A DNA stretch of 61,800 nucleotides from Kiritimatiellia bacterium (GTDB lineage: Bacteria > Verrucomicrobiota > Kiritimatiellia > JAAZAB01). Each line of letters opens with the position of its first letter. The first letter of the stretch is position 1. The notes under the pieces are model-generated. The model was not told the origin of the DNA. It searched no databases and saw nothing but the letters and a program-made list of their open reading frames with translations. The stretch covers positions 1 to 61,800 of the forward strand of contig JAQUQV010000006.1 of assembly GCA_028715905.1 (NCBI GenBank), read 5' to 3'. A program made the translations under genes and the position numbers. Below, piece after piece: positions 33,469 to 55,404 of this stretch.

Positions 33469-34296
33469 TCAGGCGCGCATTTTGCGCGAAATCTCAAAGT
33501 TTTTCACCTTTATAAAATCCTTGGCTATCATCCTGATACCCTCGGATTCGTCATCGTAACGTTTGGTGCACAGATCGCATTCGGAGCATTTGCGCTCATA
33601 ACAGTTGCGGTGCACGCGGGAGGGATACATTTTTCGGAAAGCTTCGTAACATTCCTGGGAACAGAAAACATGGCGTTCCTGGCACGAGCCGAATGCCGCC
33701 TGAACGAGCCGGAAGCCTTCCTGTTTTGGATCGGCGTCTTTTTCGCACCAGCTGCATTTTATTTTCAAGCGGTCAATGACCTGGCGGTAACGCTGGGAAA
33801 TTTCTTCCTCGGTCCAGACATATTCAATCCAGTCAATCGCGCCCTTGTTGATTTTGGCGATGACCACGTCATTTTTCAGCAGAAACACATCGCCGGGCAC
33901 CGTCACATAACAACGGTCGCCTTCAATTACGGCCTGGCTTGCGCGCAAATGAACGCGAACCGGGCCGTTTGCCGGAGTTTCATACGTGTTCCAGCCGCAG
34001 GCCTCGCAGACTGTCGCGAAGAGGTTCTCGTTGAGGTGTTCGCCGCAACGCGGGCAGAGCCCCATCTGAATCACATGCAGCTGTTTGATGGAGTCTTCGG
34101 CGGCGTCCTGGACCTGCCGTTCGGCTTCCCTTTGCAGGCGTTTTTCCTTAAGGCCGAATTCATCGTCCAGTATCAGAATATCCTTTTCCAGCTTGTCCCT
34201 CTGCTGATCCGGCAAAACCGTGTGATGCAGCGGGGACTGGAGCATGTCCTTGTCCGACTCCTTGGCGAGACCCAGCAGTTCAAATATCTTGCGCAT
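33469..34296 (-). CDS. Cys-rich zinc-ribbon protein of unknown function
   Basis: 275 residues from the ATG at 34296 (a GTG at 34326 is an alternative). The first 75 residues are helical and charged. A zinc ribbon follows ('CPRCGEHLN' and 'CEACGWN'), then a beta-rich segment, then three more Cys groups: 'CSWCEKD', 'CSQECYEAFRKMYPSRVH', and 'CYERKCSECDLCTKRY'. Several structural zincs are likely. No known family recognised. It is the first gene after a good promoter and 131 bp upstream of the membrane-fusion gene, so it may regulate or assist the exporter (inference only). Confidence 0.7.
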   Translation of the reverse strand: MRKIFELLGLAKESDKDMLQSPLHHTVLPDQQRDKLEKDILILDDEFGLKEKRLQREAERQVQDAAEDSIKQLHVIQMGLCPRCGEHLNENLFATVCEACGWNTYETPANGPVRVHLRASQAVIEGDRCYVTVPGDVFLLKNDVVIAKINKGAIDWIEYVWTEEEISQRYRQVIDRLKIKCSWCEKDADPKQEGFRLVQAAFGSCQERHVFCSQECYEAFRKMYPSRVHRNCYERKCSECDLCTKRYDDESEGIRMIAKDFIKVKNFEISRKMRA

Positions 34297-34347
34297 AAGG
34301 GCTGTGGCGTTTGCCTGCGGCCGCACATAAACATAAAAAACGAAGTT

Positions 34348-34394: not shown

Positions 34395-35399
34395 TCATTT
34401 TCTCTCTTTTGCGACAGCATATCCCAGCATATCCATGGCCGTATTTATCACGGTTTCCGGCGTTATGGTTTGCATGCAGGAATTGTCGCGGAACCGGCAG
34501 CGCGCCGAAAAACACGGCTGGCAGTGTAATTTGCCCTTCAAGACGGCATGATTCCGGCCGTAAGGACCGGTAAGGACCGGGTCGGTCGGACCGAACAACG
34601 CCAGGGTCGGCTTTCCAAAGGCCGCGGCCAGGTGCATCGGCCCGGAGTCATTGGTGAGCACCAGATCCATTTCGCGCAACAGTCCGGCCAGTTGCGGCAG
34701 AGTCGTTTTCCCGGCCAGGTTGACCGCCCGGCCGTTTAATTCCCGGGCGATTTCCGCCGCCGCCGGCCGGTCGCCGGCCGCGCCGAAAATATATATGGAA
34801 GCGTCCAGGTTTTCCTGCAATTCGCGGCCGGCGCGCGCGAATGACGCGCACGGCCAGTTCTTGCTCGGCCAGCGCGAGAAAGGCAGCATGGCAATGCGCG
34901 GCGCCGGCTCGCTGACCAGTTGAAAGGGAATGTTCATCGGAAAAACGGGAGGAAGAAGCGGCAGATGCAGATAACGCGCCACGTCCATAATCTCGTCAAC
35001 CGCGTGGCGGTTTTTGTTTTTTTTCCCCGCCACGACCGTATAGAAAAGAAACGAGCCTTCGCGGTGGAACGAAGGCCCGATCCGTTGTTTTCCGCGCGCC
35101 AGGCGGTTGACGAGCGCGCTTTTCAGAATGCCCTGCAGGTCAATAATCATTTCGTATTGTTCCGCGCGGAGCAAACGGGTTTGCCGGATGAATTCAGCGG
35201 GCGCGCCGCGGCGCGGAAAAACAAGCGTCCGGCTGACGTCGGAAAAACATTTTACCAGCTCGGCATAAGCGGGATGAACCACCCAGTCAATTTCGGCCGG
35301 CAAGCCGTTTTTCAGGCAATGCGCCGCCGGCAGGGCGTGCAGGATGTCTCCCAGCGAGCTTAATTTCACTATCAGAATGCGCTTGGCGCCGTTTACCAT
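34395..35399 (-). CDS. GT9 heptosyltransferase (WaaC/WaaF type)
   Basis: ADP-heptose:LPS heptosyltransferase family, 334 residues, acting at the inner face of the inner membrane in LPS core assembly. It begins 'ILIVKLSSLGDILHALPA', has 'YEMIIDLQGILKSALV', 'IAMLPFSRWPSKNWP' and the donor-binding 'LTNDSGPMHLAAAFGKPTLALFGPTDP' region. The C-terminus contains four Cys ('CQPCFSARCRFRDNSC'), a pattern seen in other heptosyltransferases from related groups. It agrees with the heptose pathway at 40636-49643. Read alone, divergent from the TPR gene. Confidence 0.9.
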   Translation of the reverse strand: MVNGAKRILIVKLSSLGDILHALPAAHCLKNGLPAEIDWVVHPAYAELVKCFSDVSRTLVFPRRGAPAEFIRQTRLLRAEQYEMIIDLQGILKSALVNRLARGKQRIGPSFHREGSFLFYTVVAGKKNKNRHAVDEIMDVARYLHLPLLPPVFPMNIPFQLVSEPAPRIAMLPFSRWPSKNWPCASFARAGRELQENLDASIYIFGAAGDRPAAAEIARELNGRAVNLAGKTTLPQLAGLLREMDLVLTNDSGPMHLAAAFGKPTLALFGPTDPVLTGPYGRNHAVLKGKLHCQPCFSARCRFRDNSCMQTITPETVINTAMDMLGYAVAKERK

Positions 35400-39475: not shown

Positions 39476-40468
39476 TTATCCGGCGGCCCGCGCGGATTCG
39501 TTTTTTTCGGCCGGCGGCAAGCCGATTGTTTCGGCGATAAAATAAAGCGGCCTTTTTTTGGCCTCGTCAAATATCCGGCCGACATACTGGCCGATTATCC
39601 CCAGGCTGATCAGTTGAATTCCTCCGAGCAGGAGAACGGCCACCATTATCGTGGCCCAGCCGGGCACCGGGCCGGAGGGATTGCGCAGTTTGTTGATGAT
39701 GATGATGGCGGCCTCAAGACCGCCGAGCAGGGCTATGAAAATTCCCAGACCGGTCGCCCACATCAGCGGTTTTCCGGAAAAAGACGTGAGCGCGTCCCAG
39801 GCAAGGATAAATGATTTCCAGACCGGATACTTGGTGATGCCCGCCTGCCGCGGCTCGCGCTTGTACGTTACCGCGCAATGGGTATAGCCGACCCAGCCGG
39901 TCAGGCCGCGCATGAAGCGGTGCCGCTCCCGCACATTTTTAAGGGCCGCAACCACTTTGCGGTCAACCAGGCGGAAATCGCCGGCGTTGAGGGGCGCCTC
40001 AAAGTCAACCAGCTTTCTGAAAATCCGGTAAAAAAGGCCGGCCAGCAGTTTTTTAAGCCAGGTTTCGCCGGCCCGCTGTTCCCGGACGGCGTACACCACC
40101 TCAAATCCTGCGCGCCATTTTTCAACCAGGCGCGGTATGACTTCCGGGGGGTCCTGCAAATCGGCGTCAATAATCACGGCGGCCGCGCCGCCGGAATAGT
40201 CCAAACCGGCGGTAATCGCGATTTGATGCCCGAAATTCCGGGAAAGTTTTATCAGCTTCAGGCGTTTGTCCTCCCGGGCCCTGGCGGCCACCCAGTCGGC
40301 CGACCCGTCCGAACTGCCGTCGTCAACAAAAATGATTTCAAAATCTTCCTCCCCGCCCGCAAGAGTTTCACTCAGCCGCCGGTAAAGAACGGGAAGATTG
40401 TCTTTTTCATTCAGAAACGGCACTACGACGGACAGCATTTTTTTTGTCGCGGGCGGCGGCAGTGTCAT
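39476..40468 (-). CDS. GT2 polyprenyl-phosphate glycosyltransferase (DPM1/GtrB-like)
   Basis: Transfers a sugar from a nucleotide donor to undecaprenyl phosphate at the inner membrane; 330 residues from the ATG at 40468, which has GAGGAG 5 nt upstream. GT-A motifs: 'SVVVPFLNEKDNLPVLYRRL' start, 'FVDDGSSDGS', 'IDADLQDPPEV' and 'GDFRLVDRKVV'. Two C-terminal membrane segments (about 235-255 and 270-295). A longer upstream frame to 40699 crosses the repeat element and is not used. Convergent with dnaG, 16 bp apart. Confidence 0.9.
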   Translation of the reverse strand: MTLPPPATKKMLSVVVPFLNEKDNLPVLYRRLSETLAGGEEDFEIIFVDDGSSDGSADWVAARAREDKRLKLIKLSRNFGHQIAITAGLDYSGGAAAVIIDADLQDPPEVIPRLVEKWRAGFEVVYAVREQRAGETWLKKLLAGLFYRIFRKLVDFEAPLNAGDFRLVDRKVVAALKNVRERHRFMRGLTGWVGYTHCAVTYKREPRQAGITKYPVWKSFILAWDALTSFSGKPLMWATGLGIFIALLGGLEAAIIIINKLRNPSGPVPGWATIMVAVLLLGGIQLISLGIIGQYVGRIFDEAKKRPLYFIAETIGLPPAEKNESARAAG

Positions 40469-40512
40469 GGTTTGCTCCTCGAGGTATGGGAATTTCAAAG
40501 TTGTCTGTTTTT

Positions 40513-40635: not shown

Positions 40636-41229
40636 TTATTCTTCCGCAATGATTTCCGCCGCTTGCCCCAGGTCCGGGACGATAAAGTCCGGCCGGCAAT
40701 TGTCCAGGCTGAAGAACAGCTCAATTTGTTCAATCTTCAGCCGGGTCACGAGCATGGTCTGACATCCGGCGTTTTTGCCCGCCTGCACGTCGTTCAGTCC
40801 GTCGCCCAGCATCCAGCTGGACGGCAAATCAATGTCAAACTTGCGCGCCGCCGCCAGCAGCATGCCCGGTCTGGGCTTGCGGCATTCGCAGGCGACGGCA
40901 TATTTATTTTTTGCCGGCGCCGGACCGGGAGCGTGAGGGCAGAACCGCAGTTCGTCCCATTTGGCCTCTTCGGCGGCGAGCCGGGCGGCCAGTTTGTCGT
41001 TGACCGCCGTCAATGCTTTCAGCGAAAGGGTTCCCCTGGCTATGCCCGGCTGGTTGGTTGCCACGATTACGAGGTAACCATGCCGATGGGCGCACTTTAT
41101 AAAGTCCGCCGCATGGGGTTTGAGAACAACGTCTTCCGGACGGCGCGGAGAATCAAGGGTGCCGTGGATTTCATCATACACCATTTCATTCAAGGTGCCG
41201 TCTCGGTCAACAAATACCGCTTTGTTCAT
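40636..41229 (-). CDS. gmhB: D-glycero-D-manno-heptose 1,7-bisphosphate phosphatase
   Basis: HAD-IIIA phosphatase removing the 7-phosphate in nucleotide-heptose synthesis; 197 residues. 'VFVDRDGTLNE' (Asp nucleophile and acid), 'VIVATNQPGIARG', the zinc loop 'CPHAPGP...CECRKPRPGM', and 'MLGDGLNDVQAGKNAG' are all present. Start overlaps the hddC stop (ATGA). Last gene of the operon. Confidence 0.93.
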   Translation of the reverse strand: MNKAVFVDRDGTLNEMVYDEIHGTLDSPRRPEDVVLKPHAADFIKCAHRHGYLVIVATNQPGIARGTLSLKALTAVNDKLAARLAAEEAKWDELRFCPHAPGPAPAKNKYAVACECRKPRPGMLLAAARKFDIDLPSSWMLGDGLNDVQAGKNAGCQTMLVTRLKIEQIELFFSLDNCRPDFIVPDLGQAAEIIAEE

Positions 41230-41936
41230 CTTCTGCCGCGCGCGCTCCCGATGTATTTTTCAAAGTCTTCCAGCCCGGAAGGCCTGCCGATTTCATAGAA
41301 TCTTTCCGCGGCCACATGCGCCCTCAACTGCCGCCGGGCGGCCAGGTTCTCCTGGATTTGCGCCAGGTCAAGGGGGAGGGGGGCGTTTAAATATGCTTCC
41401 ATAACAGATTTCCGGTAAATGGACAAGCCGTAGTCAATATAATCGCATCTTTCGCCGCCGGGGTTTTTTGAATAAAAAACCACGAAACCGTCTCTGATTT
41501 TTACGTTGCTGACATCCCATTTGTTTTTGTTGCGATAAACGCACATCAGGGCCGGGGCGCTGTTTTTCTCAAAAGCCCGGACAACTTTCCGGTAATCAAT
41601 CGGGAGATAAGAATCGCCGTACAGAACCATGAACTTTTCACGCAGCATGGCAAAAGCGTTGACCAGGGCGCCGCCGGTTCCGAGCAGTTTGCGGGGGGAT
41701 TCCCTGGAATAACTGATCTTCACGCCGAAAGAAGCGCCGTCGCCCAGATGCTTTTCAAGCATTTTTCCCCTGTAGCCGGCGCAGATGAGGATATCGCCGC
41801 AGCCGTTCCGCCGCAGAAGTTCCAGCTGGTGCTCAATGAAAGGCCGGCCGGCGGCGGGAATGAGCGCCTTTGGCAGTCTGGCCGCCAGTTTTTTCATTCG
41901 CGTTCCCAGGCCTCCGGCTAGAATGACCGTCTGCAT
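41226..41936 (-). CDS. hddC: Nucleotidyltransferase, heptose-1-phosphate guanylyltransferase-like (HddC)
   Basis: Activates heptose 1-phosphate with a nucleotide; 236 residues. The NTP-transferase signature 'ILAGGLGTRMKKLAARLPKA' is at the N-terminus, followed by 'RPFIEHQLELLRRNG', 'LLGTGGALVNAF' and 'VLYGDSYLPIDY' (metal Asp). HddC makes GDP-D-glycero-alpha-D-manno-heptose in the GDP route; the neighbouring HddA-type kinase supports that choice. Coupled to gmhB by ATGA. Confidence 0.85.
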   Translation of the reverse strand: MQTVILAGGLGTRMKKLAARLPKALIPAAGRPFIEHQLELLRRNGCGDILICAGYRGKMLEKHLGDGASFGVKISYSRESPRKLLGTGGALVNAFAMLREKFMVLYGDSYLPIDYRKVVRAFEKNSAPALMCVYRNKNKWDVSNVKIRDGFVVFYSKNPGGERCDYIDYGLSIYRKSVMEAYLNAPLPLDLAQIQENLAARRQLRAHVAAERFYEIGRPSGLEDFEKYIGSARGRR

Positions 41937-41939
41937 GAA

Positions 41940-42872
41940 TCAGAAAACCTTTCGCCAGTAATCCAGGATTGCTTTAACCGAAGTTTCCAGGTCAACCTGC
42001 GGCTGCCAGCCCAGCGCCTTCAGCCGGGCCGGGTCGCCGGTTTTGTCCGGGTTGTCAATGGGCCGCATTTTTTCCGGGTCGTTAACTATCCGCAAGTCCG
42101 CCCCTGTGTTTTTTCTGAATATGTCCAGGAGGGCGCCGATGGAATGCCCGGCGCCGGAACAGATGTTGTAAACGCCGCCGATTTTCCCGCGCAAGGCGAT
42201 CTGCCAGAGCGCGGAAACGCAGTCGCGCACGTCAAGGAAATCGCGGATGTTTTCCAGGTTGCCCACCCGCAATTCGCTTTCTTTGCCCCGTTCAATGCGC
42301 GCGATTCCGCGGGCGAAATCGGAGCTGACGTCGCCCGTTTTCCGCGGGCCGATTATGAAAAACGGCCGGACGCATATTGTCTTCAGGTTTTTTTTCGCGC
42401 AGTAGATTCCGGCCAGGTGTTCCATGGCCAGCTTGCTGGCCGCGTAGATGCTGTCCGGTCTGAGCGGCGCGTCTTCGGCGATGGGAATGTTTTCCCGGCC
42501 GGGTGCGTAAACCGAGCTGGAGGAAACCGCGATGATCAGCGGCGGGCGGGATTGGCGCTCGGCCCCTTCAAAAAGTTTGAGCGAGCCGGTCAGATTGGCG
42601 CGGAAAGTCAGCGCCGGATCGGTCCAGGAAACAAGCGGCAGGCTCTGGGCCGCGAGGTGGAAAATAATGTCCGGTTCATGCCGCTCCAGGAGGCGGTCAA
42701 TAAACACGGCGTCCGTCAAATCGCCGCAGGCGGCCGCCAGCCGGCCGTTGAGGTGTTTCAAGAATTCATCCGGCCGGCGCATGGCCGCGACAACCGACTG
42801 GTCTTGTCCGAGCAGATATTCAGCCAGGCAGCTTCCGATGAAGCCGCCGGCGCCGGTAATCAGGCATTTCAT
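41940..42872 (-). CDS. Extended SDR, GDP-mannose/GDP-heptose dehydratase-like
   Basis: NAD(P)-dependent nucleotide-sugar enzyme, 310 residues. Rossmann 'ITGAGGFIGSCLAEYLL', catalytic Ser-Tyr-Lys in 'VSSSSVYAP' and 'YAASKLAMEHL', and 'RPFFIIGPRKTGD'. It resembles GDP-mannose 4,6-dehydratase and RMD reductase. In a GDP-heptose operon it may act on GDP-heptose to give a 6-deoxy sugar, as DmhA/DmhB do in Yersinia; this is inference. 3 bp upstream of hddC. Confidence 0.85.
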   Translation of the reverse strand: MKCLITGAGGFIGSCLAEYLLGQDQSVVAAMRRPDEFLKHLNGRLAAACGDLTDAVFIDRLLERHEPDIIFHLAAQSLPLVSWTDPALTFRANLTGSLKLFEGAERQSRPPLIIAVSSSSVYAPGRENIPIAEDAPLRPDSIYAASKLAMEHLAGIYCAKKNLKTICVRPFFIIGPRKTGDVSSDFARGIARIERGKESELRVGNLENIRDFLDVRDCVSALWQIALRGKIGGVYNICSGAGHSIGALLDIFRKNTGADLRIVNDPEKMRPIDNPDKTGDPARLKALGWQPQVDLETSVKAILDYWRKVF

Positions 42873-42907
42873 TTATGAATGGGGCGCAAGCTTGAAAAAG
42901 CACGCAG

Positions 42908-43909
42908 TTAAAACTTGATGATTTTGCCGGTTTTTTCCGATTCATAGACCGCCAGCGCGATTTGCAGCGCTTTCCGGCCGTCCTCGCCGTTGCCGAGCGG
43001 CTCCCGCCCTTCGGAAATTGCGGCGATGAATTCCTTCCATTCTTCTTTCCAGGAAACGTCGCCGCCGCGGTATTCAGTGATGTTTTCGCTGAAGGGCGCT
43101 TCAAAATCGCGTTGGCCGATAACCAGCCGCTCGGTGCCGTAGCTGGCGCCGAGTCCGTCCACGGCGGCGTAACCGTCGCGGCCGAAGACCTCAAAGGAAA
43201 AAAGATTTTTCCATTGGGTCAGCGAGGAATGCAGGGAGGCCGTGGCCGCCGATGATGTGCGAAAGACGGCCATGCCGTCTTCGTCCAGGGGCTGGCCGGT
43301 GAAGAAACGCCGCGCGGTCATGCCGGTTGCCTCGGTGATTTCTCCCAGGAACCAGCGGAAGAGGTCAATCGCATGGGTGCCCTGTTCAATGAACTGCCCG
43401 CCGGCGGCCTGATCCGGGTCCGCGCGCCATTCCTTTTCGTATTCCGGCCGTCCGCATATGCCGTAACGGCAGCGCGCGAAGAGCGCCTGGCCGATGTCTC
43501 CCCTTTCAAGCGCCGCTTTTGCCTCCCGGACGGCGGGATGGTGGCGGTGGTTAAAGCCGCATTTGAGGATTTTTTTCGCCTGGCGCGCCGCGGCCAGCAT
43601 CGCGTCGGCCTCGGCCAGCGAGCGGGCCAGCGGTTTTTCGCACAAAACGTGCTTGCCGGCGCGCAGGGCGGCGGCGCCGATTTCGGCGTGCGCATAAGGG
43701 GGCGTGCAGACGAGCACGACGCCGATCTCTTCCATGGCAACGGCTTCCTGCCAGGTTTTGACCGCGGCGCAGCCAAAATCTTTTGCGGCGGCGTCGGCCT
43801 TTTGAAAAGTGCGGTCGGCGATGACCGCCAATTCCGTCTGGGCGCACGCCCTTACTGCCGGCGCCCGCCGGCGGCACTGCAAGCCCGCGCCGATGATGGC
43901 AACCTTCAT
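42908..43909 (-). CDS. Gfo/Idh/MocA-family oxidoreductase
   Basis: NAD(P)-dependent sugar oxidoreductase, 333 residues from the ATG at 43909, which overlaps the upstream stop as ATGA. Rossmann 'VAIIGAGLQCRRRAPAV', 'VCTPPYAHAEIG', the family 'GKHVLCEKPLARSLAEAD' with catalytic Lys, and 'GGQFIEQGTHAIDLFRWFLG'. Substrate unknown; in this operon probably a nucleotide sugar. Confidence 0.88.
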   Translation of the reverse strand: MKVAIIGAGLQCRRRAPAVRACAQTELAVIADRTFQKADAAAKDFGCAAVKTWQEAVAMEEIGVVLVCTPPYAHAEIGAAALRAGKHVLCEKPLARSLAEADAMLAAARQAKKILKCGFNHRHHPAVREAKAALERGDIGQALFARCRYGICGRPEYEKEWRADPDQAAGGQFIEQGTHAIDLFRWFLGEITEATGMTARRFFTGQPLDEDGMAVFRTSSAATASLHSSLTQWKNLFSFEVFGRDGYAAVDGLGASYGTERLVIGQRDFEAPFSENITEYRGGDVSWKEEWKEFIAAISEGREPLGNGEDGRKALQIALAVYESEKTGKIIKF

Positions 43910-45240
43910 TTTCTGCATGGCGTTGATTCCTCTTGCGCCGCGTCAAATCCGCGTCCGAAGCCGATATAGCGGAAACCGGCGCGCACGAGATCGGCCCGGT
44001 TGAGAATGTTGTTGGCGTCAATCAAAAGATCGCCGGCCATTGTTTTTCTGATTCGGCCGTAGTCCAGGTTTTTATATTCTTTCCAGCCGGTTAGCAAGAG
44101 TAAAGCATCGGCGCCGCGGGCGGCCCGATAAGGGTTATTTTCAAAACGGAAATCGGCGCGGCCGGCTATTTCCCGCCGGTCGGCTTTCGGGTCGTGCGCG
44201 GTAACAGACGCGTTTGCGCGGTTCAGTTCGGCGATGATTTCCAGGGAAAGCGAACGCCGCAGGGCGCTGGTGCCCGGCTTGTAGGCCAGCCCCAGCACGG
44301 TTATTTTTCTGCCGGCGAGCGGTTTTAAAGCCCGGCGCAGTTTCAGGACAACCATCCGGTTCTGGATTATATTTGACTGCCAGGCGCCGTTGAGGAGGGG
44401 CGTTTTTACCCCGCAGCGGCGGCCGAGTCCGCGCAGGGTCTGCATGTCGCGCGCCAGCGTTCCGCCCGCGAAACCCAGCCCGGGCATCAGCATCGCCTTG
44501 CGGCCGATCCGCGGCTCGGCGCGGAGGATTTCCGCCAGCCGGAAACCGTCGGCGCCGGTCTTGTCGCAGAGGTTGCCCAGTTCATTGCCGAAGGCGAGCG
44601 AGACCGCCAGGTATCCGTTCAAGGCGTGTTTTACCATTTCAGCCGTTACCAGCGATGTCCGCTCCCATTTTCCGCCGATGGCGGAGAGGAGGGGGACCAA
44701 CCGGGCAAAAGCGCGTTCATTGTCCGCGCCGATCACCCGCAGGGGCGGATTGAGGAAACGTTCAATCGCCCGGCCGAGCTGAAGATTTTCGGGGCTGTAG
44801 GCGAGAGAAAAGCGCAGGGCGGGATTCTTTTTCCTGATTTCCGCTTCCAGCAGAGCGCAGGTGCCGACCGGCACCTGCGCGGTTACCAGGATGACGGAGT
44901 CATTTTCCAGGGCGGGAGCTATTTTCCGCGCGGCCCCGAAGATGCCGCTCAAATCGCTCCGGTCTTTTTCGTCAACGGGGGTGTCAGACATGAGGAGGAC
45001 CAGCGGGCGGTTCTTCACAACCGCCTGCAGGTTGGCGGTGAAGCGCAGGCGTCCGGCGCGCAGGTTTTTCCGCAGCAGTTCTTCCAGGCCGGGTTCAAAG
45101 AGCGGCGGCCGTCCGGCCCGGAGCCTGCGCACGGTTTGTTCGTTCGGGTCCGCGGCCAAAACATCAAAGCCCAGACCGGCGAGGCAGGCGGCGCCGACCA
45201 CTCCCTGGTGCCATAATCCGATAATGCCTGTTTTTTTCAT
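43906..45240 (-). CDS. UGD-family nucleotide-sugar dehydrogenase lacking the catalytic Cys
   Basis: Resembles UDP-glucose/GDP-mannose dehydrogenase over 444 residues, with an N-terminal Rossmann 'GIIGLWHQGVVGAACLAGLG', a central helix, and a C-terminal domain ('VLGLAYKPGTSALRRS'). Lys204, Asn208 and Asp265 match catalytic residues of the family, but the Cys of the canonical GGSCFPKD is Thr261 here ('GFAGGTLARDMQTL'). Without Cys the second oxidation to the uronic acid should be blocked, so the product may be an aldehyde or the protein may have another role. Coupled on both sides by ATGA overlaps. Confidence 0.85.
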   Translation of the reverse strand: MKKTGIIGLWHQGVVGAACLAGLGFDVLAADPNEQTVRRLRAGRPPLFEPGLEELLRKNLRAGRLRFTANLQAVVKNRPLVLLMSDTPVDEKDRSDLSGIFGAARKIAPALENDSVILVTAQVPVGTCALLEAEIRKKNPALRFSLAYSPENLQLGRAIERFLNPPLRVIGADNERAFARLVPLLSAIGGKWERTSLVTAEMVKHALNGYLAVSLAFGNELGNLCDKTGADGFRLAEILRAEPRIGRKAMLMPGLGFAGGTLARDMQTLRGLGRRCGVKTPLLNGAWQSNIIQNRMVVLKLRRALKPLAGRKITVLGLAYKPGTSALRRSLSLEIIAELNRANASVTAHDPKADRREIAGRADFRFENNPYRAARGADALLLLTGWKEYKNLDYGRIRKTMAGDLLIDANNILNRADLVRAGFRYIGFGRGFDAAQEESTPCRK

Positions 45241-46226
45241 TCTTTCCCCAGCATTCTCCGCACGGCGATGCGCACCGCCTCGTCGGAGGTGTGTTTTGCG
45301 GTCCAGCCCAGCCGGCGCATCCGCTCCACGGTGATATGCACCCTGGGCTGGTCGCCGGGCCAGGCTTTTGGCGTGCCTTCAACGGCGATTCCGGCTGCGG
45401 GCAGTTCCATTTCGTTCCTGATGATTTCCGCGATGTCGGTAACCCTGGAAATTGTGGCGGTCCCGAGGTTGAAAATATCGCAGGGATTTTCGGCCGTCAT
45501 GGGAATGTTGCGGAACGCCCAGCCCATGCCGTCAATGCATTCCTCAACGAGAAAATAGTTTTTTTCCTGCCGGCCGTCGCCCCGGATGAGCAGTTTGTCC
45601 GGGTTGGCGCGCAATTTATGGATGAAATCATAGATGACGCCATGCGTCATTCTTTTCCCGATCACGTTTCCGAAGCGGAAAATCCAGGCGCGCAGTCCGT
45701 AAAGGTGGCAGTAAGCCGAAATGAAAGCCTCGCCGCCGATTTTCCCGGCGGCGTAGGTTGAAACCGGCAGGAGAGGGCCGGCCTGCTCGTTTACGGGCCG
45801 GTCGCGGCAAAGTTCGCCGTAGACCGCGCCGGTTGAGGAAAAAAGCAGGGGCTTGATATTGTTGAGGCGCATGGCCTCAACAACGTTGAAAGCGCCGGCC
45901 GCGCAGTCTTGCAGGTCGCGCCGCGGGTTTTCGGCGCCCCCGATTATGTCGGTGTTGGCGGCGAGGTGCCAGACGAGGTCGTGATCCCGACTGGCGTTCC
46001 GGAGGCGTTCCATGTCCAGAATATCCGCTTGTATAAAGGTGAAATTCGGATTTTCAAAGTGGGCGGAGACGTATTCGCGGCGGCCGTTGGAAAGGTTGTC
46101 GTAGACGCAGACCTGATAGTCCTGCGCCATGAGGCAATCCACAACGTGGCTGCCGATGAAGCCGGCCCCGCCGGTTACGAAAATTTTTCTGACGGAATTG
46201 CCGAGGGTGCGTTCCATTTTTTTCAT
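45237..46226 (-). CDS. Extended SDR nucleotide-sugar epimerase/dehydratase (paralogue A)
   Basis: 329 residues; 'FVTGGAGFIGSHVVDCL' Rossmann motif, 'DNLSNGRREYV', and active-site 'STYAAGKIGGEAFISAY' (Tyr-x3-Lys). Strongly similar to the next gene upstream along the whole length ('RFGNVIGKRMTHGVIYDFI', 'IRGDGRQEKNYF'), so the two arose by tandem duplication. The likely reaction is C4 epimerisation or dehydration of a nucleotide sugar. Coupled by ATGA to both neighbours. Confidence 0.87.
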   Translation of the reverse strand: MKKMERTLGNSVRKIFVTGGAGFIGSHVVDCLMAQDYQVCVYDNLSNGRREYVSAHFENPNFTFIQADILDMERLRNASRDHDLVWHLAANTDIIGGAENPRRDLQDCAAGAFNVVEAMRLNNIKPLLFSSTGAVYGELCRDRPVNEQAGPLLPVSTYAAGKIGGEAFISAYCHLYGLRAWIFRFGNVIGKRMTHGVIYDFIHKLRANPDKLLIRGDGRQEKNYFLVEECIDGMGWAFRNIPMTAENPCDIFNLGTATISRVTDIAEIIRNEMELPAAGIAVEGTPKAWPGDQPRVHITVERMRRLGWTAKHTSDEAVRIAVRRMLGKE

Positions 46227-47209
46227 GCCGCCGGCTTGATCCGGCCCAGGCGCGCGTCTTCCAGCATGGCCGCGACCGCCGCCTCCACCGCCTCTCTGGA
46301 AGTCATCCGGTTGCGCCAGCCCAGTTTTCTGATTTTATCGGTTTGGAGGCGGTAAACGGGGACATCGGCCTTCCAGCCGCGGGCGCCGCCGGTGTATTCA
46401 AAAACCGCGCCGGCGAGCTTCATTTTGGCAACGACAATTTCGGCGATCTGGGTGACGGTCAGAAAATCCTCGGCGCCGACGTTGAAGACCTCGTAAGGCG
46501 CGGACTGTTTTTGCTCCGCCAGCAGGAAGGCGTCCAGGACGTCGGCGATGAAAATATACGGCTTGCTTTGTCGGCCGTCGCCGAAAATGAGAAGGCGCTG
46601 CGGGGCTTTCAGCAGGCGGCGGATGAAATCGTAGGCCACGCCGTGGGTTTGATGGGGGCCGACAACATTGGCGAAGCGCATGACCGTGCCCCGGATTCCG
46701 AAGAGATGGCTGTAGGCGCTGATCAGCGCCTCGCTTCCCAGCTTGCTGGCGCCGTAAGTTGAAATGGGAATGGAATGCGGCCAGGCTTCCGGCAGAGGCA
46801 CGGGGGGCACGTCGCCGTAGACGCCGGAACCGGAGGAAAAGAAAATGCGCTTGCAGCCGCAGCGCCGCATGGCCTCCAGGGTGTTATGGGTAAGGTAAAG
46901 GCCGTTCCAGAAATCAATTTCCGGCTCCTCGGCCGCGCGCGCGATGTCGGAATTGGCGGCGAGATGAAAGACGGTTTCGCAGCCGGTCATGGCCGCCTCC
47001 AGGCATTCCAGGTCTGAGGCGTCCGATTCAACAATTGTCAGCCGGGGGCTCTTGATTCTTTCCGCAAAGGGCCAGCGGCGGCCGGTGCTGAAATTGTCGT
47101 AGACGACCACTTCCGCTGCGGTTGTGTCCAGCAGGCGGTTGACGAGGTGCGCGCCGATAAAACCGGCTCCGCCGGTTATGAAATAACGGTTGGTCGGTCT
47201 GCGGTTCAT
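46223..47209 (-). CDS. Extended SDR nucleotide-sugar epimerase/dehydratase (paralogue B)
   Basis: 328 residues with 'FITGGAGFIGAHLVNRLL', 'DNFSTGRRWPF', 'FSSGSGVYGDV' and 'STYGASKLGSEALISAY'. Sister of paralogue A ('RFANVVGPHQTHGVAYDFI', 'IFGDGRQSKPYIF'). It begins 6 bp after hddA. The substrate is not fixed by sequence; a UDP- or GDP-linked hexose or heptose is plausible. Confidence 0.87.
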   Translation of the reverse strand: MNRRPTNRYFITGGAGFIGAHLVNRLLDTTAAEVVVYDNFSTGRRWPFAERIKSPRLTIVESDASDLECLEAAMTGCETVFHLAANSDIARAAEEPEIDFWNGLYLTHNTLEAMRRCGCKRIFFSSGSGVYGDVPPVPLPEAWPHSIPISTYGASKLGSEALISAYSHLFGIRGTVMRFANVVGPHQTHGVAYDFIRRLLKAPQRLLIFGDGRQSKPYIFIADVLDAFLLAEQKQSAPYEVFNVGAEDFLTVTQIAEIVVAKMKLAGAVFEYTGGARGWKADVPVYRLQTDKIRKLGWRNRMTSREAVEAAVAAMLEDARLGRIKPAA

Positions 47210-47215
47210 GCGGGA

Positions 47216-48241
47216 TCAGTCAAAATCATCCAGGGCGGTCAGGTCGCTGACCACGTGCGCTCCCTGCCGGGAGGGGAAATAAGCTATGGGCGGCATGCCC
47301 TGGCCGGTCATGAATTCATCCAGGGCGCGCGCCTGTTTCGGGCAGTAAAGCATCAGAAAGCCGCCGCCGCCGGCCCCGATTATTTTGCCGCCGAGGACGC
47401 CGAATCGTTTTTTAACTTCCGCGTAGAGGTTGTCCATGACGCCGAGGCTGACGGCGGCGGACATTTGTTTTTTAAACCGCCAGTGCTCGTCCATGAGCGC
47501 GCCGAACGCGTCCAGGTCGCGGGCCAGGAAAGCTTCGTAAATGCGCCGGCCGATTTCCTTGATATTGAGCAGGCATTCAATCGTGTTTTTATGGCCGGGA
47601 TTTTCGCGCCGGCGGGCGGCCTCGTCCTGTTTTTTAAGGACGGCCGTGGCGGAACGCTGTACGCCGGTGTAATAGACGCGGGCCTTGGAAACGAGCTCGT
47701 TGGCCGTGGCGAAATCCACCGGCGAGCGTTCCACGGTTACCTTGCCGTCGGGAGCTATGGCAAGTTTCCTGAAACCGCCGAAGGCCGCCATGTACTGGTC
47801 CTGCTTGCCGACCGGTTCCCCGAGAATATCCATTTCAATCCGGCAGGCTTCCTCGGCGATTGTCGCGGGCGGGGCGGATTCTCCCTTGTATGCGCGGATG
47901 GCGGTGAGCAGGCCCGCGAGATAGGAGCCGGACGAGCCCAGCCCCGTTTTGGCCGGCATATCCGCGATGCTGGTTAATTCAATGTTGGCGCGCACGTCAT
48001 GCAGACGGAGCGCTTCCCGCGCCAGGGGATGCCTGATTTCTTCAATGCTGTCAACAGTTTCAACCTGGTTGTAGCGGACGACGATTTTCCGGTCGGCAAC
48101 GGAACGCCGGTTGAGGAGTATATACATGTATTTGTTGATGCACATGGCGAAGATAAAACCGCCGTGTTGTTCGTAAAACGAAGGCAGGTCGGTTCCCCCC
48201 CCGCCCAGCGTGATCCTGAATGGCGTCCGTGTGATAATCAT
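47216..48241 (-). CDS. hddA: GHMP-family D-glycero-D-manno-heptose 7-phosphate kinase (HddA-like)
   Basis: Phosphorylates heptose 7-phosphate at C1 (alpha), the step that directs synthesis to GDP-heptose. 341 residues from the ATG at 48241; the longer frame to 48421 overlaps the transaldolase gene. GHMP motifs: 'IITRTPFRITLGGGGTDLP', 'KTGLGSSGSYLAGLL' and 'GKIIGAGGGGFLMLYC'. Its presence, not a bifunctional HldE, suggests the GDP- and not the ADP-heptose branch. Confidence 0.9.
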   Translation of the reverse strand: MIITRTPFRITLGGGGTDLPSFYEQHGGFIFAMCINKYMYILLNRRSVADRKIVVRYNQVETVDSIEEIRHPLAREALRLHDVRANIELTSIADMPAKTGLGSSGSYLAGLLTAIRAYKGESAPPATIAEEACRIEMDILGEPVGKQDQYMAAFGGFRKLAIAPDGKVTVERSPVDFATANELVSKARVYYTGVQRSATAVLKKQDEAARRRENPGHKNTIECLLNIKEIGRRIYEAFLARDLDAFGALMDEHWRFKKQMSAAVSLGVMDNLYAEVKKRFGVLGGKIIGAGGGGFLMLYCPKQARALDEFMTGQGMPPIAYFPSRQGAHVVSDLTALDDFD

Positions 48242-48275
48242 CTTTGCCTGCTCTCTGTTGTGTTTTTGCGCCTGT

Positions 48276-49022
48276 TCACAGAATTGTAAATCCGCTTCTG
48301 ACGGCATCATGATAAAACATCCGCACCGTCTCAAGCGAATAAATCTCCAGTTCCTTTCCCAGATTGCCGGTTTTGGCGAGCAAATCGGGGGTAACGGTGA
48401 TGATATGACAGCCGATTTCATCGGCCTGAATGATATTGAGAACCTCGCGCGGACTGGCCCAGAGCAGTTCGGCCGCGGGCAGAGGCTTTAAAATCGCCAG
48501 CGCGTTTTTCATGGCCGGCAGGGGGTCGCGTCCGCTATCCGCGATGCGTCCGGCGAAAACCGACACGATTGACGGCACATCGGGCCGCAAAACGGGGACA
48601 AGCCCCCCGACCTGTTCCGTGGTCATGATGGCGGTGATGTTGAGTTTCAAGCCCAGTTCTGCCAGCTCCCGGATCAGCGGGGCGGATTGTTCGCCGCGGG
48701 TGTTGGTGACGGGAATCTTGACATAGACGTTTGCCCCCAGCTCGTTCAGCCGCAGAGCCTGTTGCCGCATCCCGGCCATGTCGTCCGAAAACACTTCAAA
48801 CGAGACCGGCATATCCCGCACTACGCGCAGGACTTCGGTGGCAAAAGCCAGGTAGTTGGTGATGCCGGCCTTCGCCATGAGCGTCGGATTGGTGGTGAAA
48901 CCCTTTACGATTTTTTTTTCGTAGGCGTCTATGATTGAGTCCAGGTCGGCGCCGTCGGCAAATATTTTTATCTTCAAATCCTGGAGACCGCGTTTTTCAT
49001 CCGTTTCCGCCATGTTGTTCAT
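48276..49022 (-). CDS. Transaldolase / fructose-6-phosphate aldolase family
   Basis: Class I aldolase of 248 residues, short TalC-type. 'VKGFTTNPTLMAKAGI', 'SFEVFSDD', the Schiff-base Lys in 'VYVKIPVTN', 'LNITAIMTTEQ', and 'SVFAGRIADSGRDP' are all family features. In the heptose operon it probably makes or drains sedoheptulose 7-phosphate, the substrate of GmhA. It starts 12 bp after gmhA. Confidence 0.9.
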   Translation of the reverse strand: MNNMAETDEKRGLQDLKIKIFADGADLDSIIDAYEKKIVKGFTTNPTLMAKAGITNYLAFATEVLRVVRDMPVSFEVFSDDMAGMRQQALRLNELGANVYVKIPVTNTRGEQSAPLIRELAELGLKLNITAIMTTEQVGGLVPVLRPDVPSIVSVFAGRIADSGRDPLPAMKNALAILKPLPAAELLWASPREVLNIIQADEIGCHIITVTPDLLAKTGNLGKELEIYSLETVRMFYHDAVRSGFTIL

Positions 49023-49034
49023 CCCGGTCAGATT

Positions 49035-49643
49035 TCAGGTTTTGCCGCTTGTTTCCGCCTCCCATTTGGGCGCGGCCGAGCGCAGTTTAGGGTGCGACAC
49101 GATCAGGTGGGCAAGCAGGGCGTGAAACGATTCCGTGTGCGGGGTAACACGGCCCGGATTGACAACCGGCACAAGCACGCAGGCATCGGCGATTTTCGCC
49201 GTGTAACCCCCGGCGCGCCCGACAATCCCCAGGATCACGGCCCCTTTTTTTCTGGCAAACTGGAGCGCCCTGACAAGGTTCGCGCTGATGTTTTTTTCCA
49301 GGTCGCCCCCGCCCACCGAAAAGACAAAAACAACGTCGTTTTTCCGGAGACGGCCGGCCCGCAGCCAGCCTTCAAGGCAGTTTTCCCAGCCATCGTCATT
49401 AATGCGCGCGGTCAGCTCGGACACGTTATCGGTCGGCGCGCAGGCGTCCAGGCCGGCCAGCTTGCGCAAATCGTTGACAAAATGGGATGCGGTCGCGGCG
49501 CTGCCGCCGATGCCGAGCACGTAGACCCGCGTCCGCCGCCGCCGGGCGCGGGCCAGATGCGCGATCATGGCGGCGAGCGGCCGGCGCTTGATTTTTCCGG
49601 TGATAACGGCGGATTCGGCCAGGTATTTATTGATGAATTTCAC
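49035..49643 (-). CDS. gmhA: SIS-domain sedoheptulose 7-phosphate isomerase (GmhA-like)
   Basis: First step of nucleotide-heptose synthesis, converting sedoheptulose 7-P to heptose 7-P; 202 residues. SIS motifs are 'VYVLGIGGSAATASHFVNDL', 'VFSVGGGDLEKNISANLVRA' and 'GAVILGIVGRAGGY'. A GTG start at 49643 is used; no obvious ribosome site. A TATACAAT box a few bases upstream may be a -10 element. The helical tail 'HALLAHLIVSHPKL' matches GmhA-type proteins. First gene of the operon. Confidence 0.88.
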   Translation of the reverse strand: MKFINKYLAESAVITGKIKRRPLAAMIAHLARARRRRTRVYVLGIGGSAATASHFVNDLRKLAGLDACAPTDNVSELTARINDDGWENCLEGWLRAGRLRKNDVVFVFSVGGGDLEKNISANLVRALQFARKKGAVILGIVGRAGGYTAKIADACVLVPVVNPGRVTPHTESFHALLAHLIVSHPKLRSAAPKWEAETSGKT

Positions 49644-49687: not shown

Positions 49688-50245
49688 TCAGGGGTGAATC
49701 TGGCCGTCGGGCAGTATGGTGCCGCTGAAAACGGCTCCGTTGGTTTTAGCTCCTTCCATGATGGCTCCCGTAAGATTGGCCCCGCTCAGATCGGCGTCTA
49801 TGAGCGCGGCCTGGCTGAGGTCCGCCCCCACCATGGAGGCGTTTTGCAGATTGGCCTTGGTCAGGTTGGCGTTTTTCAGGTTGGCGTTTACCAGTTTGGC
49901 GCCGTTCAAATCGGCTTGATAAAGGATGGCTTTTTCCAGATTGGCCTTGGTCAGGTTGGCCTGGTTGAGCCGGGCGTTTTTAAGGATGGATTTTTTCAGA
50001 CTGGCCTCGGACAGGTTTGCGAACGAGAGATTGGCGCCGGAAATATCAGCTTCGTCCAGTTTGGCGCCGCTCAAATCCTTGCCGATATGAATACCGCGGA
50101 TTATCTGCAGGCACTGTTCTTTGGTCAGATCGGCGGCGGAGACGCCTTTGGTTTTGATGTTAATGATTTTTTTCTGGGCCGGGGCCGGCGGGAGCATGAC
50201 CAGCGGGAGCATGATAACCAGAATGATTGGGCGCAAATCCTTCAT
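49688..50245 (-). CDS. Secreted pentapeptide-repeat protein
   Basis: 185 residues with a signal peptide (about 1-23, ending PAPA). From about residue 55 there are some 22 A(D/N)Lxx pentapeptides ('ANLSFANLSEASLKKS'), which fold as a right-handed beta-helix. Function unknown. It lies between rpoD (33 bp) and gmhA (44 bp), both in the same direction, and may be co-transcribed with either. Confidence 0.85.
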   Translation of the reverse strand: MKDLRPIILVIMLPLVMLPPAPAQKKIINIKTKGVSAADLTKEQCLQIIRGIHIGKDLSGAKLDEADISGANLSFANLSEASLKKSILKNARLNQANLTKANLEKAILYQADLNGAKLVNANLKNANLTKANLQNASMVGADLSQAALIDADLSGANLTGAIMEGAKTNGAVFSGTILPDGQIHP

Positions 50246-52464: not shown

Positions 52465-55404
52465 TTAAAAGCGCGGCCGGCCGGATGCGTCGCTGAAGAC
52501 CAGCCAGCCGTAATTGGCCGGATGCTGGTGGGCAAACAGCAGGCGATGCCTGGCCGGATAAGTCTTTGCCCACGAATTGATCGTCTTTTGTTTTGAAAGA
52601 TAAAGCGAGACGTTCACCCGCATCCGCGGATTGGATTGCAATTGTCGCGCGGAAATTTTCAGGCAGGCGAAGGGAACCGCCAGGACGAACCGCCAGACGC
52701 CGCCTTGCTTTTTCACGGCGGTTTTCCAGCCGGGTTTTACGGAGGCAATGTAGCCGCCGTCAATGATAGCCGAGGCTTTTCCGTTTCTGGAGACATGGAA
52801 GGCGATGTGCGATCCAAGCCGCAAGGGTTCAAAAACAAAATGCACCGAGTCGTTTTCCGCATCCGGCCCGGCGTCCGGGGTTGTTTCGGACGGGCAGTCG
52901 GCGCAGATGTATACCGCGCGCCGGTCGCGGGCCGCGCGCCATGAAATTCCCGTTTTTTGGGCGCGGTCGGAAACAACCGGATCCATTTGAGTCCCATAGG
53001 ATTCCCGTTTCCCGGGCAGCGAGACGCGTGGGGCCAGCCAGTGGCGGCATTCCGCCGCCGTCTGTCTTTCCCATCCGGGGCCGAAAGGGTATTTCAAAAG
53101 CGCGTTTCCATTCCCAACCGGCCGGCATTTATAAGCCTGGATGGAAGGCCCGCGGCCGATGTAGTCCTGGAAAAGGATTTCTCCGTTTTTAATCTTTTTG
53201 GCCACGCCCGGGAATTCCGTTTTTAACAGGCGCTGGAGTTGGTTGATGCGCCAGTTTATTCGGGAGGGATAATACTTGTATCCTTCCGCCTCGGAATGGA
53301 ATCCGAGGCGGCGGTCCCGCCGGCAAAGTCGCAGCAGTGCCCGGTCGTTGGATATTTCGTCAACGACGATGCGTCGCATGGCCGCCAGAAGTTTGCGTTT
53401 TTGAGATGTTCCGCGCGCCGCGGCGAGCTTGTCGCGCAGCGAATAAAAGGAAAGGATATTGTATCCGCTGTCAAACTGCAGGTCCAGGGCCGCGGCGATC
53501 CCGATATCCAGTCGCCGCTCCCGGTTGCCGCGGAAGCGAGGTTCAAGGCGTTTGAGGATTTTCATTCCGCGGCGCCAGTCTTCGCGCATTTTTTTACAGA
53601 GCGCGAGGATTTCGCCGTAGTTGAAAAAAGAGCTAATACATTCGCCGACCTGGTCTCCGCTGGGTGGGTAACAGATTTGCCAGGTGGGCGCCAGGGGCAG
53701 GCGGCGCGGCTCAAGATACAGCGGCCAGACCGGGCCGTCATGCATCGGCCCGTAATACCCGAACACGTGTTCGGCCGGGTATTGCGAGTAGCCTTTCCGG
53801 AAATAATCCCAGGCGCGGGCGACTTCGGACGCGGATTCGCCCCAGTCGCGGCGGGCAAGCGTTAGGAGGAAATCGCGCTCGGTTTTTGGGAACGGGTTGA
53901 AAGCAAGCATTTCCGAAGCCTTTGTCATGAGGCAGGGGTAATTGCCGAAAAACCATCCCTGCATGGCTCCGCTCACGCCGAGTCTGCGCATCGCCTTGTA
54001 TTTCCGGTAAATGAGCCCGGGCGCCGGAACATACTGAGTGGTGGCAACCTCATGCGAGCAGCTCGTCTGGAGTTTTGCGAAGATGCGGGTCCCGTTTTTG
54101 CGGGCCGCGCGGGCGCAGTCCGCGAAAAGCCTGCTCGGTCCGGTCCAGGAAAGCCAGTAATCCCAGAGCGGACGCGGTTTCCCGAGTTGCCTGGCCGTTC
54201 CCCCCGTTTCAAAATTATACTGCAGGATTACGTTTGGCGGCGCGTGGCCGGCGGCCTTAACCATCATTTTTTTGCCCCACAGGATCATTTGGCCGTAGGG
54301 CCATGCAATAAGTTCCGCGCCGGGCGAAACGGAATGCATGCCGCGTTCAAGCGCGGCCAGGGTGTCCGCCAGAACCGCCAGCGGGGTTCTTTTGGCGCAA
54401 CGCGGGCAGTTGATAGGTTCCCCTTGCCGGTTTTCCGGGAGGAAAACGGAGTAACAATGCGTGATTCTTTCCCCGACCGGGATGAGGATGAGTCCGCCGA
54501 GCCCTGGCGCCAGCGTGAAAAGAACGCGCGCGGCTTCCTCAAGATAAGCCCGCCCCAATGCGGCGCTTGTGCAAAAAGCGAACTGTTTTGCGCCGCTGAT
54601 CCTGGATTCGTGCCCCTTTAATTCGGGATGGGCTTTAAGCACGGGACTGTTATCCGGGAAAAAGGCCGGTTCAATGCAGAAGGGGTAGATTTTAATGCCG
54701 TAACGCGCGCATTGCCTGATGATCGCGCGCAGTTTAGTCAGCCGCCGTTCGGGATTCTGTCCGTATTCCGGAATGATTTTTGAAGGACAGATATCCTTGA
54801 ATTTGATTGTCAACCAGAGCGCGTTGACGCCGTTGTGGGCCAGCCGGTTCAAATATCCTTCGGGGTAGTAATTGATGTTGTCATTCAATTCGTCCCGGCA
54901 CTTGGGCGGGCGGTTGATGGGGCCGTAGAAACAGCGCGAGAGGCGCGTGCGCACGAAGGGTTTGCGTTTGACGGCGCCGAAGGGCAGCGCGCAGGCGCCG
55001 CGCGCGAGAATCTGGTCTTCAAGATAAACGAGTCCGCGGCGGATGCCCTCGGTGTCCGCCGCCAGCACGGCGATGCTGTTTTTTTCAACGGCGATGCGGT
55101 ATTCCTCAAATACGGATGTTCTGGCGTGCGCGGTTATTATCCGGCAGGGGCCGCCGCCTTTCAGGCCGATTGATTTTAAAAAATCGTTGAAATCCGCGCA
55201 GGCTGTCCGAAGCAGTCCCCGGGGGTCCGGAAATTCGGCGATAAAATGCGCGCCGTTTCTGAAGTCAAGTTCATTTGGTTTCGGCCCGGCGCCGGACAAT
55301 TTTACCGGAGCGTGAATCGGCCGCTGCAATTCCCTTTCAAAAGGCCATGAATCTTCGGGTGGTTGCGGGGGCGGGGCAGGGTAGCGAATGGGTGGAGTGC
55401 GCAT
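52465..55404 (-). CDS. Putative glycoside hydrolase with GH20/GH67-like barrel and CBM9-like C-terminus
   Basis: 979 residues, no signal peptide. The N-terminal segment 'AADTEGIRRGLVYLEDQIL' near residue 115 is of the type preceding GH20, GH67 and GH84 barrels. The barrel region contains 'GVNALWLTIKFKD', 'GIKIYPFCIEPAFF', 'LILIPVGERITHCYS' and 'AELIAWPYGQM'; Glu and Asp residues in these could be catalytic but I cannot assign them. A helical part follows (about 520-760). The last 200 residues ('SVHFVFEPLRLGSHIAFHVS', 'WRFVLAVPFACL') resemble CBM9/DOMON-like sugar-binding domains. No ribosome site before the ATG. Substrate unknown. Confidence 0.65.
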   Translation of the reverse strand: MRTPPIRYPAPPPQPPEDSWPFERELQRPIHAPVKLSGAGPKPNELDFRNGAHFIAEFPDPRGLLRTACADFNDFLKSIGLKGGGPCRIITAHARTSVFEEYRIAVEKNSIAVLAADTEGIRRGLVYLEDQILARGACALPFGAVKRKPFVRTRLSRCFYGPINRPPKCRDELNDNINYYPEGYLNRLAHNGVNALWLTIKFKDICPSKIIPEYGQNPERRLTKLRAIIRQCARYGIKIYPFCIEPAFFPDNSPVLKAHPELKGHESRISGAKQFAFCTSAALGRAYLEEAARVLFTLAPGLGGLILIPVGERITHCYSVFLPENRQGEPINCPRCAKRTPLAVLADTLAALERGMHSVSPGAELIAWPYGQMILWGKKMMVKAAGHAPPNVILQYNFETGGTARQLGKPRPLWDYWLSWTGPSRLFADCARAARKNGTRIFAKLQTSCSHEVATTQYVPAPGLIYRKYKAMRRLGVSGAMQGWFFGNYPCLMTKASEMLAFNPFPKTERDFLLTLARRDWGESASEVARAWDYFRKGYSQYPAEHVFGYYGPMHDGPVWPLYLEPRRLPLAPTWQICYPPSGDQVGECISSFFNYGEILALCKKMREDWRRGMKILKRLEPRFRGNRERRLDIGIAAALDLQFDSGYNILSFYSLRDKLAAARGTSQKRKLLAAMRRIVVDEISNDRALLRLCRRDRRLGFHSEAEGYKYYPSRINWRINQLQRLLKTEFPGVAKKIKNGEILFQDYIGRGPSIQAYKCRPVGNGNALLKYPFGPGWERQTAAECRHWLAPRVSLPGKRESYGTQMDPVVSDRAQKTGISWRAARDRRAVYICADCPSETTPDAGPDAENDSVHFVFEPLRLGSHIAFHVSRNGKASAIIDGGYIASVKPGWKTAVKKQGGVWRFVLAVPFACLKISARQLQSNPRMRVNVSLYLSKQKTINSWAKTYPARHRLLFAHQHPANYGWLVFSDASGRPRF

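Follow-up and report, generated by a model that had tools for sequence, protein, structure and literature searches.

Heptose pathways are usually described as taking sedoheptulose 7-phosphate from central metabolism. The closest known route to nucleotide heptoses comprises Cj1424 (GmhA), Cj1425 (HddA), Cj1152 (GmhB) and HddC in Campylobacter jejuni, with WcbL as the Burkholderia pseudomallei kinase, and is followed by modification of the GDP-heptose (PMC10680097, PMC4691232). Here, we analyzed a likely operon of ten genes at positions 40636-49643 of the minus strand in a 61,800-nucleotide stretch (the window) of a Kiritimatiellia bacterium (assembly GCA_028715905.1, contig JAQUQV010000006.1, C6 in our numbering; 2.67 Mb in 141 contigs, 96% complete). 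Compared with this route, the order of the chemistry is the same, that is, isomerase, 1-kinase, 7-phosphatase, nucleotidyltransferase and modification by oxidoreductases. However, the operon differs in its dedicated transaldolase, its divergent isomerase clade, the location of gmhB inside the cluster and the presence of enzymes resembling UDP-glucose 6-dehydrogenase (UGD) and of the Gfo type. Our reading, to which we assign a probability of about 0.7, is that the operon serves, as a conserved cassette of its own, to synthesize and then modify a nucleotide-activated heptose, the product being destined for a surface glycan, with reactions, substrates and fate of the sugar deduced from sequence. 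The genes, in order, and the adjacent glycosyltransferase are as follows.

49035..49643, minus strand: SIS-domain isomerase (SIS), GmhA-like but of a separate clade; TIGR00441 gmhA 52 bits (cut-off, 209), PDB matches all phosphoheptose isomerases
48276..49022, minus strand: transaldolase (TAL), TIGR02134 family; 330 bits against a cut-off of 282
47216..48241, minus strand: GHMP kinase, HddA/WcbL-like; best family NF049969, best PDB chains WcbL 4usm/4usk; start preferred at 48241 (the longest open reading frame would begin at 48421)
46223..47209, minus strand: extended short-chain dehydrogenase/reductase 1 (SDR1), epimerase/dehydratase type; PF01370 160 bits, YGASK motif
45237..46226, minus strand: extended SDR2; PF01370 141 bits, YAAGK motif
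43906..45240, minus strand: UGD-fold nucleotide-sugar dehydrogenase without the catalytic Cys; TIGR03026 286 bits, GGSCFPKD changed to AGGTLARD
42908..43918 (start at 43918 or 43909), minus strand: Gfo/Idh/MocA oxidoreductase; PF01408 97 bits plus PF22725
41940..42872, minus strand: extended SDR3; PF16363 195 bits, PF01370 182 bits
41226..41936, minus strand: sugar-1-phosphate nucleotidyltransferase (NTPt), MurU/ManC/HddC-like; MurU 108, man1P_GTase (mannose-1-phosphate guanylyltransferase) 98 and HddC 84 bits, all below cut-off
40636..41229, minus strand: GmhB-like HAD-IIIA phosphatase; PRK08942 GmhB 130 bits (cut-off, 178), PDB matches D,D-heptose 1,7-bisphosphate phosphatases
39476..40471, minus strand: adjacent family 2 glycosyltransferase (GT2), operon membership uncertain; PF00535 105 bits

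The intergenic gaps within the set of ten range from -13 to +35 bases, and therefore a single operon is likely. An earlier note on this window had described ten genes, five of them further sugar-modifying ones, and all ten co-directional open reading frames were found. ATGA couplings, said there to run along most of the operon, do exist, but only at three of the nine junctions (SDR1/SDR2, SDR2/UGD-like and NTPt/GmhB-like), or at four if the Gfo gene starts at 43909 rather than 43918. The gene calls of that note hold at the family level, except for the strict GmhA and the HddC/GDP assignments.

The evidence that carries our reading is, first, the association of TAL with the isomerase. Relatives of TAL with >50% identity were present in 23 of the 241 genomes of the phylum, and the SIS clade occurred in the identical 23 genomes. 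In all 20 phylum relatives whose neighborhoods were read, SIS, TAL and the HddA-like kinase lay in one cluster, which is far beyond chance; 18 of these clusters also had a strong NTPt match (none in the stretch read at L042 and a weak one at L050), and 16 had GmhB. HddA-type kinases were found in as many as 52 of the 241 genomes, the 23 top-scoring copies being those of the cassettes, and therefore TAL tracks the SIS clade and not HddA generally. On the basis of the co-occurrence with SIS and of the viral copies (see below), we rejected a housekeeping transaldolase placed here by chance.

The active-site residues of TAL (D23, N45, E76, K102, T130, S154, F156, R159, S190 and R192) were the same in 105 of 105 aligned copies. 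Nine of these ten positions were also checked in the viral alignment and did not vary in 81 of 81 rows. K102 corresponds to the Schiff-base Lys of transaldolases. At the counterparts of E76 and F156, Glu and Phe are typical of transaldolases, while Gln and Tyr (Gln59 and Tyr131) mark fructose-6-phosphate aldolases (FSA). We accordingly discarded FSA activity, as E76 and F156 stand in place of those two residues. The likeness to the TIGR02134 transaldolase of the Staphylococcus type extends to a score above the family cut-off and to all ten active-site positions. However, members of this family from Staphylococcus, the Lactobacillus group, Treponema and Streptomyces (up to ca. 49% identity) are standalone or lie beside unrelated genes, while those with 53 to 74% identity to the operon TAL are located in heptose cassettes.

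In order to follow the cassette beyond the phylum, GTDB contigs were scanned with TAL, and the best 80 of at least 588 loci, that is, the closest relatives of the operon TAL, were taken. After the loci of the phylum and two more on plasmids had been added and five duplicate records removed, there were 97 distinct TAL loci. Within 9 kb of TAL, we found SIS in 84, GmhB in 74, Gfo in 60, NTPt in 57, HddA in 56 and the UGD-like gene in 42 of them. The pairing of HddA with a transaldolase that the earlier note had pointed to is thus recurrent (20 of 20 phylum loci, 56 of 97 overall), although its view that an aldolase inside such an operon is uncommon has to be abandoned, with the SIS-TAL pair in 23 of 241 phylum genomes, 84 of 97 loci and 67 of 80 viral contigs. 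Among those best 80, the closest relatives with names were metagenome-assembled genomes (MAGs) of Kiritimatiellae and Lentisphaerae (63 to 74% identity). By record title, carriers include Methanoperedens, Methanoregula, Micrarchaeota, Acidobacteria, Cyanobacteria, Proteobacteria and Chlamydiota, mostly as MAGs, of which single assignments may be mis-binned. Plasmid 3 of the obligate intracellular Lawsonia intracellularis (L146, NC_008014.1:8937-33638) carries the full cassette with each gene annotated and a flippase-like gene adjoining TAL.

Two types of cluster were distinguished. Type A has HddA and NTPt, while type B has a fusion of ca. 535 residues, the first half of which is rfaE_dom_II (the HldE adenylyltransferase) and the second half rfaE_dom_I (the HldE kinase). 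Type B thus uses the kinase and adenylyltransferase domains of HldE (RfaE) in place of HddA and its nucleotidyltransferase, but in reversed order; the fusion is absent from the window. One example is L126:12686-14290, and HddA was absent from this and the 18 further type B loci. Across the 97 loci, 56 had HddA only, 19 the fusion only, 22 neither and none both (Fisher p = 3.5e-9, relatedness ignored). On the TAL tree, both types are interleaved (20 changes for A and 9 for B, at least 11 and at least 3 of these, respectively, being required by the starred branches), and therefore the kinase module has been swapped several times around a constant SIS-GmhB-TAL core. Since this core stands beside two unrelated heptose-type kinases, both contexts point to heptose, and we regard the kinase replacement as the best indirect evidence that the substrate is a heptose. 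Downstream of TAL clusters of type B, the C-terminal half of a transketolase was seen in 7 of 19 loci (L079, L085, L090, L099, L126, L132 and L135), against one weak match in 61 HddA-type loci. As a regular part of the cassette, the transketolase was left as a hint, given that the half found also resembles DXS. Locus L045:11186-12541 has a single open frame with NTPt and GmhB matches, which is probably a fusion of consecutive steps.

The cassette is found in viruses as well. A relative of TAL was present in 247 IMG/VR contigs, and in the fetched flanks of the best 80 of them we detected SIS (67), HddA (65), GmhB (33), a nucleotidyltransferase of the L250 type (28) and GT1 (26). Contig L250 itself (L250:3542-7725) packs nucleotidyltransferase, SIS, GmhB, TAL, GT1 and HddA into 4.2 kb and also encodes a polynucleotide-kinase phosphatase, a T4-type RNase H and PhoH. 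The RNase H and PhoH genes of several cassette-bearing viral contigs (among L179-L258) mark these as T4-like. In the collection of isolated phages, a search with the viral SIS gave no match, and only Staphylococcus phages matched TAL.

The GmhA call of the earlier note is not supported in the strict sense, since the isomerase reaches only 52 of the 209 bits required and belongs to a separate clade. In GmhA, zinc is bound by H61, E65 and H183 plus Q175 of the neighboring subunit, with E65 and H183 (H180 in Escherichia coli) being catalytic (PMC5387315). GmhA and the cassette SIS share the common SIS fold, and the metal-site positions are occupied in the latter as H, D, E and H (H54, D58, E171 and H179). 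These residues were found throughout the ca. 89 copies of the cassette clade, apart from one row that is gapped or misassigned, and in 67 of 67 rows of the viral alignment. In essentially all copies, Asp and Glu thus stand where GmhA has Glu65 and Gln175, which suggests a metal site that is possibly kept yet consistently altered. The protein is probably an isomerase that converts a ketose phosphate to an aldose phosphate.

Regarding the kinase, NF049969 was the top NCBIfam family in spite of a score (116 bits) far below its cut-off of 600, compared with 94 bits for fucokinase. With WcbL as top PDB match, the HddA call of the earlier note is maintained over other GHMP groups. Residues R13, D22, Q162 and D163 of WcbL, whose structures are available (4USK, 4USM, 4UT4 and 4UTG), were shown to be functionally important (PMC4691232). 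Their counterparts R9, D18, Q147 and D148 were identical in 59 of 59 copies, so the active-site residues agree with WcbL at the positions checked, and the protein is probably a heptose-7-phosphate 1-kinase. For the phosphatase, PRK08942 was the best family, although below cut-off, and the top PDB matches were an unnamed HAD protein and GmhB; the DxD motif (D8, D10) was invariant in 74 of 74 copies, and a role as heptose 1,7-bisphosphate 7-phosphatase is probable. For the nucleotidyltransferase, an archaeal GlmU-type model (95 bits) comes third in the NCBIfam ranking, which leaves HddC in fourth place behind MurU and mannose-1-phosphate guanylyltransferase, and the PDB matches are MurU-type first, followed by the 6-deoxy-heptose pathway proteins 5xhw and 6jq8. 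Consequently, the route from pentose-phosphate intermediates to GDP-heptose, as drawn in the earlier note, can be retained up to heptose 1-phosphate, while GDP as the nucleotide is not established.

The dehydrogenase of the operon has all three UGD domains and the conserved Glu, Lys and Asn (E151, K204 and N208) of UDP-glucose 6-dehydrogenase and other NDP-sugar dehydrogenases. In contrast to these enzymes, T261 replaces the catalytic Cys of GGxCxxKD and the nearby Lys is Arg, the only changes among the catalytic positions checked. The Cys was absent from 42 of 43 aligned cluster rows (the operon copy included; two rows are duplicate records), with Thr in its place in type A clusters and Asn in type B clusters; the single Cys-bearing row, L092, is probably an ordinary UGD. 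The other close homologue in the source genome (contig C1, L151) retains GGSCFPKD. With no catalytic Cys, oxidation of CH2OH to COOH via a thioester would not be expected, and we disfavor a heptouronic acid as product. The enzyme probably carries out a two-electron oxidation of a secondary alcohol to a ketone, perhaps at C6 of the heptose. UGD oxidizes C6 of glucose, and C6 of a heptose bears a secondary alcohol; loss of the thioester-forming Cys therefore fits, without proving, a heptose substrate. For C. jejuni, the accessible text lists C4 oxidation by Cj1427 and no UGD-type step (PMC10680097). The accompanying Gfo/Idh/MocA oxidoreductase keeps EKP and H182 across the cluster copies.

Taken in sequence, TAL would form sedoheptulose 7-phosphate from fructose 6-phosphate and erythrose 4-phosphate, the divergent SIS isomerase would convert the ketose 7-phosphate to an aldoheptose 7-phosphate, the HddA-like kinase would phosphorylate it at position 1, and the GmhB-like phosphatase would take off the 7-phosphate. 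The nucleotidyltransferase would then form an NDP-heptose, in which the Cys-less UGD-like enzyme may oxidize a secondary alcohol, perhaps at C6, by two electrons. The Gfo/Idh and SDR enzymes would reduce, epimerize or dehydrate the resulting keto-heptose, and the finished sugar would be delivered to a surface glycan.

Several points weigh against this pathway. The isomerase differs from GmhA at two of the four metal-site positions, and its substrate may not be sedoheptulose 7-phosphate. This compound can also be provided by transketolase, which the genome has, and strictly speaking the pathway could do without a transaldolase of its own. No PF00923 (TAL_FSA) protein other than TAL is encoded in the source genome, and TAL, as its only transaldolase, could serve general metabolism too. 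Thirteen of the 97 loci have TAL with no detectable SIS; several of them are at contig ends, but L114, L118, L130, L143 and L144 are not. Finally, the activities of isomerase, kinase, phosphatase, NTPt and SDRs are predictions.

We tentatively put forward, as a possible though doubtful extension, that there is a separate unnamed nucleotide-sugar branch in bacteria, archaea and phages, in which an obligate TAL-isomerase pair would yield a non-standard aldose phosphate of at least seven carbons (not D-glycero-D-manno-heptose 7-phosphate) and a Cys-less UGD-type enzyme would produce a keto-heptose. Along similar lines, the SIS-TAL product might not be a manno-heptose derived from sedoheptulose 7-phosphate but, for instance, a gluco C2 epimer, or an octulose 8-phosphate or other ketose built on a different aldehyde acceptor, so that the activated sugar would be none of the known nucleotide heptoses. 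The strict pairing, even where the genome has another transaldolase, and the Glu-to-Asp and Gln-to-Glu changes, seen in virtually every copy from bacteria and archaea as well as in 67 of 67 viral ones, speak for such a sugar. However, the normal transaldolase residues of TAL and the heptose-type partner kinases in both cluster types make it unlikely.

The canonical GmhA/HddA/GmhB/HddC route, with TAL not a dedicated part of it, is improbable as well. The family-level matches to these four enzymes agree with it, as does the fact that 7 of the 23 cassette genomes, the source genome among them, have no PF00923 protein besides TAL. In the other 16, however, an additional one is encoded elsewhere, the SIS-TAL pair is also on viral contigs, and the isomerase falls outside the canonical GmhA clade. 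Besides, genomes with an HddA-type kinase but without the SIS clade have no such TAL, and Caulobacter phage Cr30 has HddA beside a phosphoheptose isomerase that is not of the cassette type (51 bits with the SIS profile), and TAL is missing from the stretch. The idea that the names are misread and that the pathway leads to a hexose or deoxyhexose (another sugar-phosphate isomerase, a fucokinase-like kinase and a MurU-like nucleotidyltransferase) can be largely dismissed, given that, although the heptose-specific NCBIfam models all score below their curated cut-offs and MurU is the best nucleotidyltransferase model, a transaldolase would be superfluous, the WcbL residues are kept, the replacement kinase is HldE-like, and the top PDB matches of SIS and the GmhB-like protein are heptose enzymes or unnamed HAD proteins.

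The source genome has other heptose genes, namely, a second HddA-type kinase (contig C12:33554-34516, L062; 36% identity) that has SDRs and an NTPt-like gene in its vicinity, an ordinary GmhA on contig C3 and an rfaE_dom_II-like protein on contig C72. Heptose of the lipopolysaccharide (LPS) type is therefore probably made outside the operon, the product of which would be additional. The heptosyltransferase mentioned in the earlier note at 34395 is indeed a GT9 heptosyltransferase, but it lies outside the operon, ca. 5 kb off, and is separated from it by dnaG, which runs on the opposite strand. Its role as a partner of the operon is unsupported, with the separate GmhA and rfaE_dom_II-like nucleotidyltransferase available for LPS-type heptose. 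The adjacent GT2, a homologue of which lies within 8 kb of TAL in 16 of 80 genome loci, is possibly the consumer of the operon product. On the other side, 44 bases upstream of the operon and on the same strand, there is a pentapeptide-repeat protein (49688-50245, minus strand) that adjoins an rpoD-type sigma factor gene. Two further proteins of the window had no Pfam match, one of 979 residues (52465-55404, minus strand) and a cysteine-rich one of 285 residues (33469-34326, minus strand), the latter with a set of ABC exporter genes on one side and the GT9 gene on the other.

A literature search, with most subscription papers outside its reach, returned no paper in which a transaldolase is linked to nucleotide-heptose clusters, and none was found on heptose-transaldolase loci of Leptospira or Coxiella. 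With its dedicated transaldolase, divergent isomerase and Cys-less dehydrogenase, the operon would represent a widespread and apparently undescribed variant of nucleotide-heptose biosynthesis, and the spread of the SIS-TAL pair over many phyla, archaea and viral contigs suggests that a branch of heptose biosynthesis has so far escaped description. That TAL travels with a divergent isomerase implies that the cluster determines how sedoheptulose 7-phosphate is supplied, or which sugar is made. Genes of this kind carry plain labels such as "transaldolase," "SIS domain protein" or "nucleotide sugar dehydrogenase," as in plasmid 3 of L. intracellularis, and the cassette gives context and testable substrates for at least 588 genome loci and 247 viral contigs. 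If true, the Cys-less dehydrogenase would represent a distinct chemistry within a well-studied fold, and the viral cassettes would give phages a heptose pathway complete with a transaldolase, which makes them candidates for virus-directed glycosylation of surfaces or DNA.

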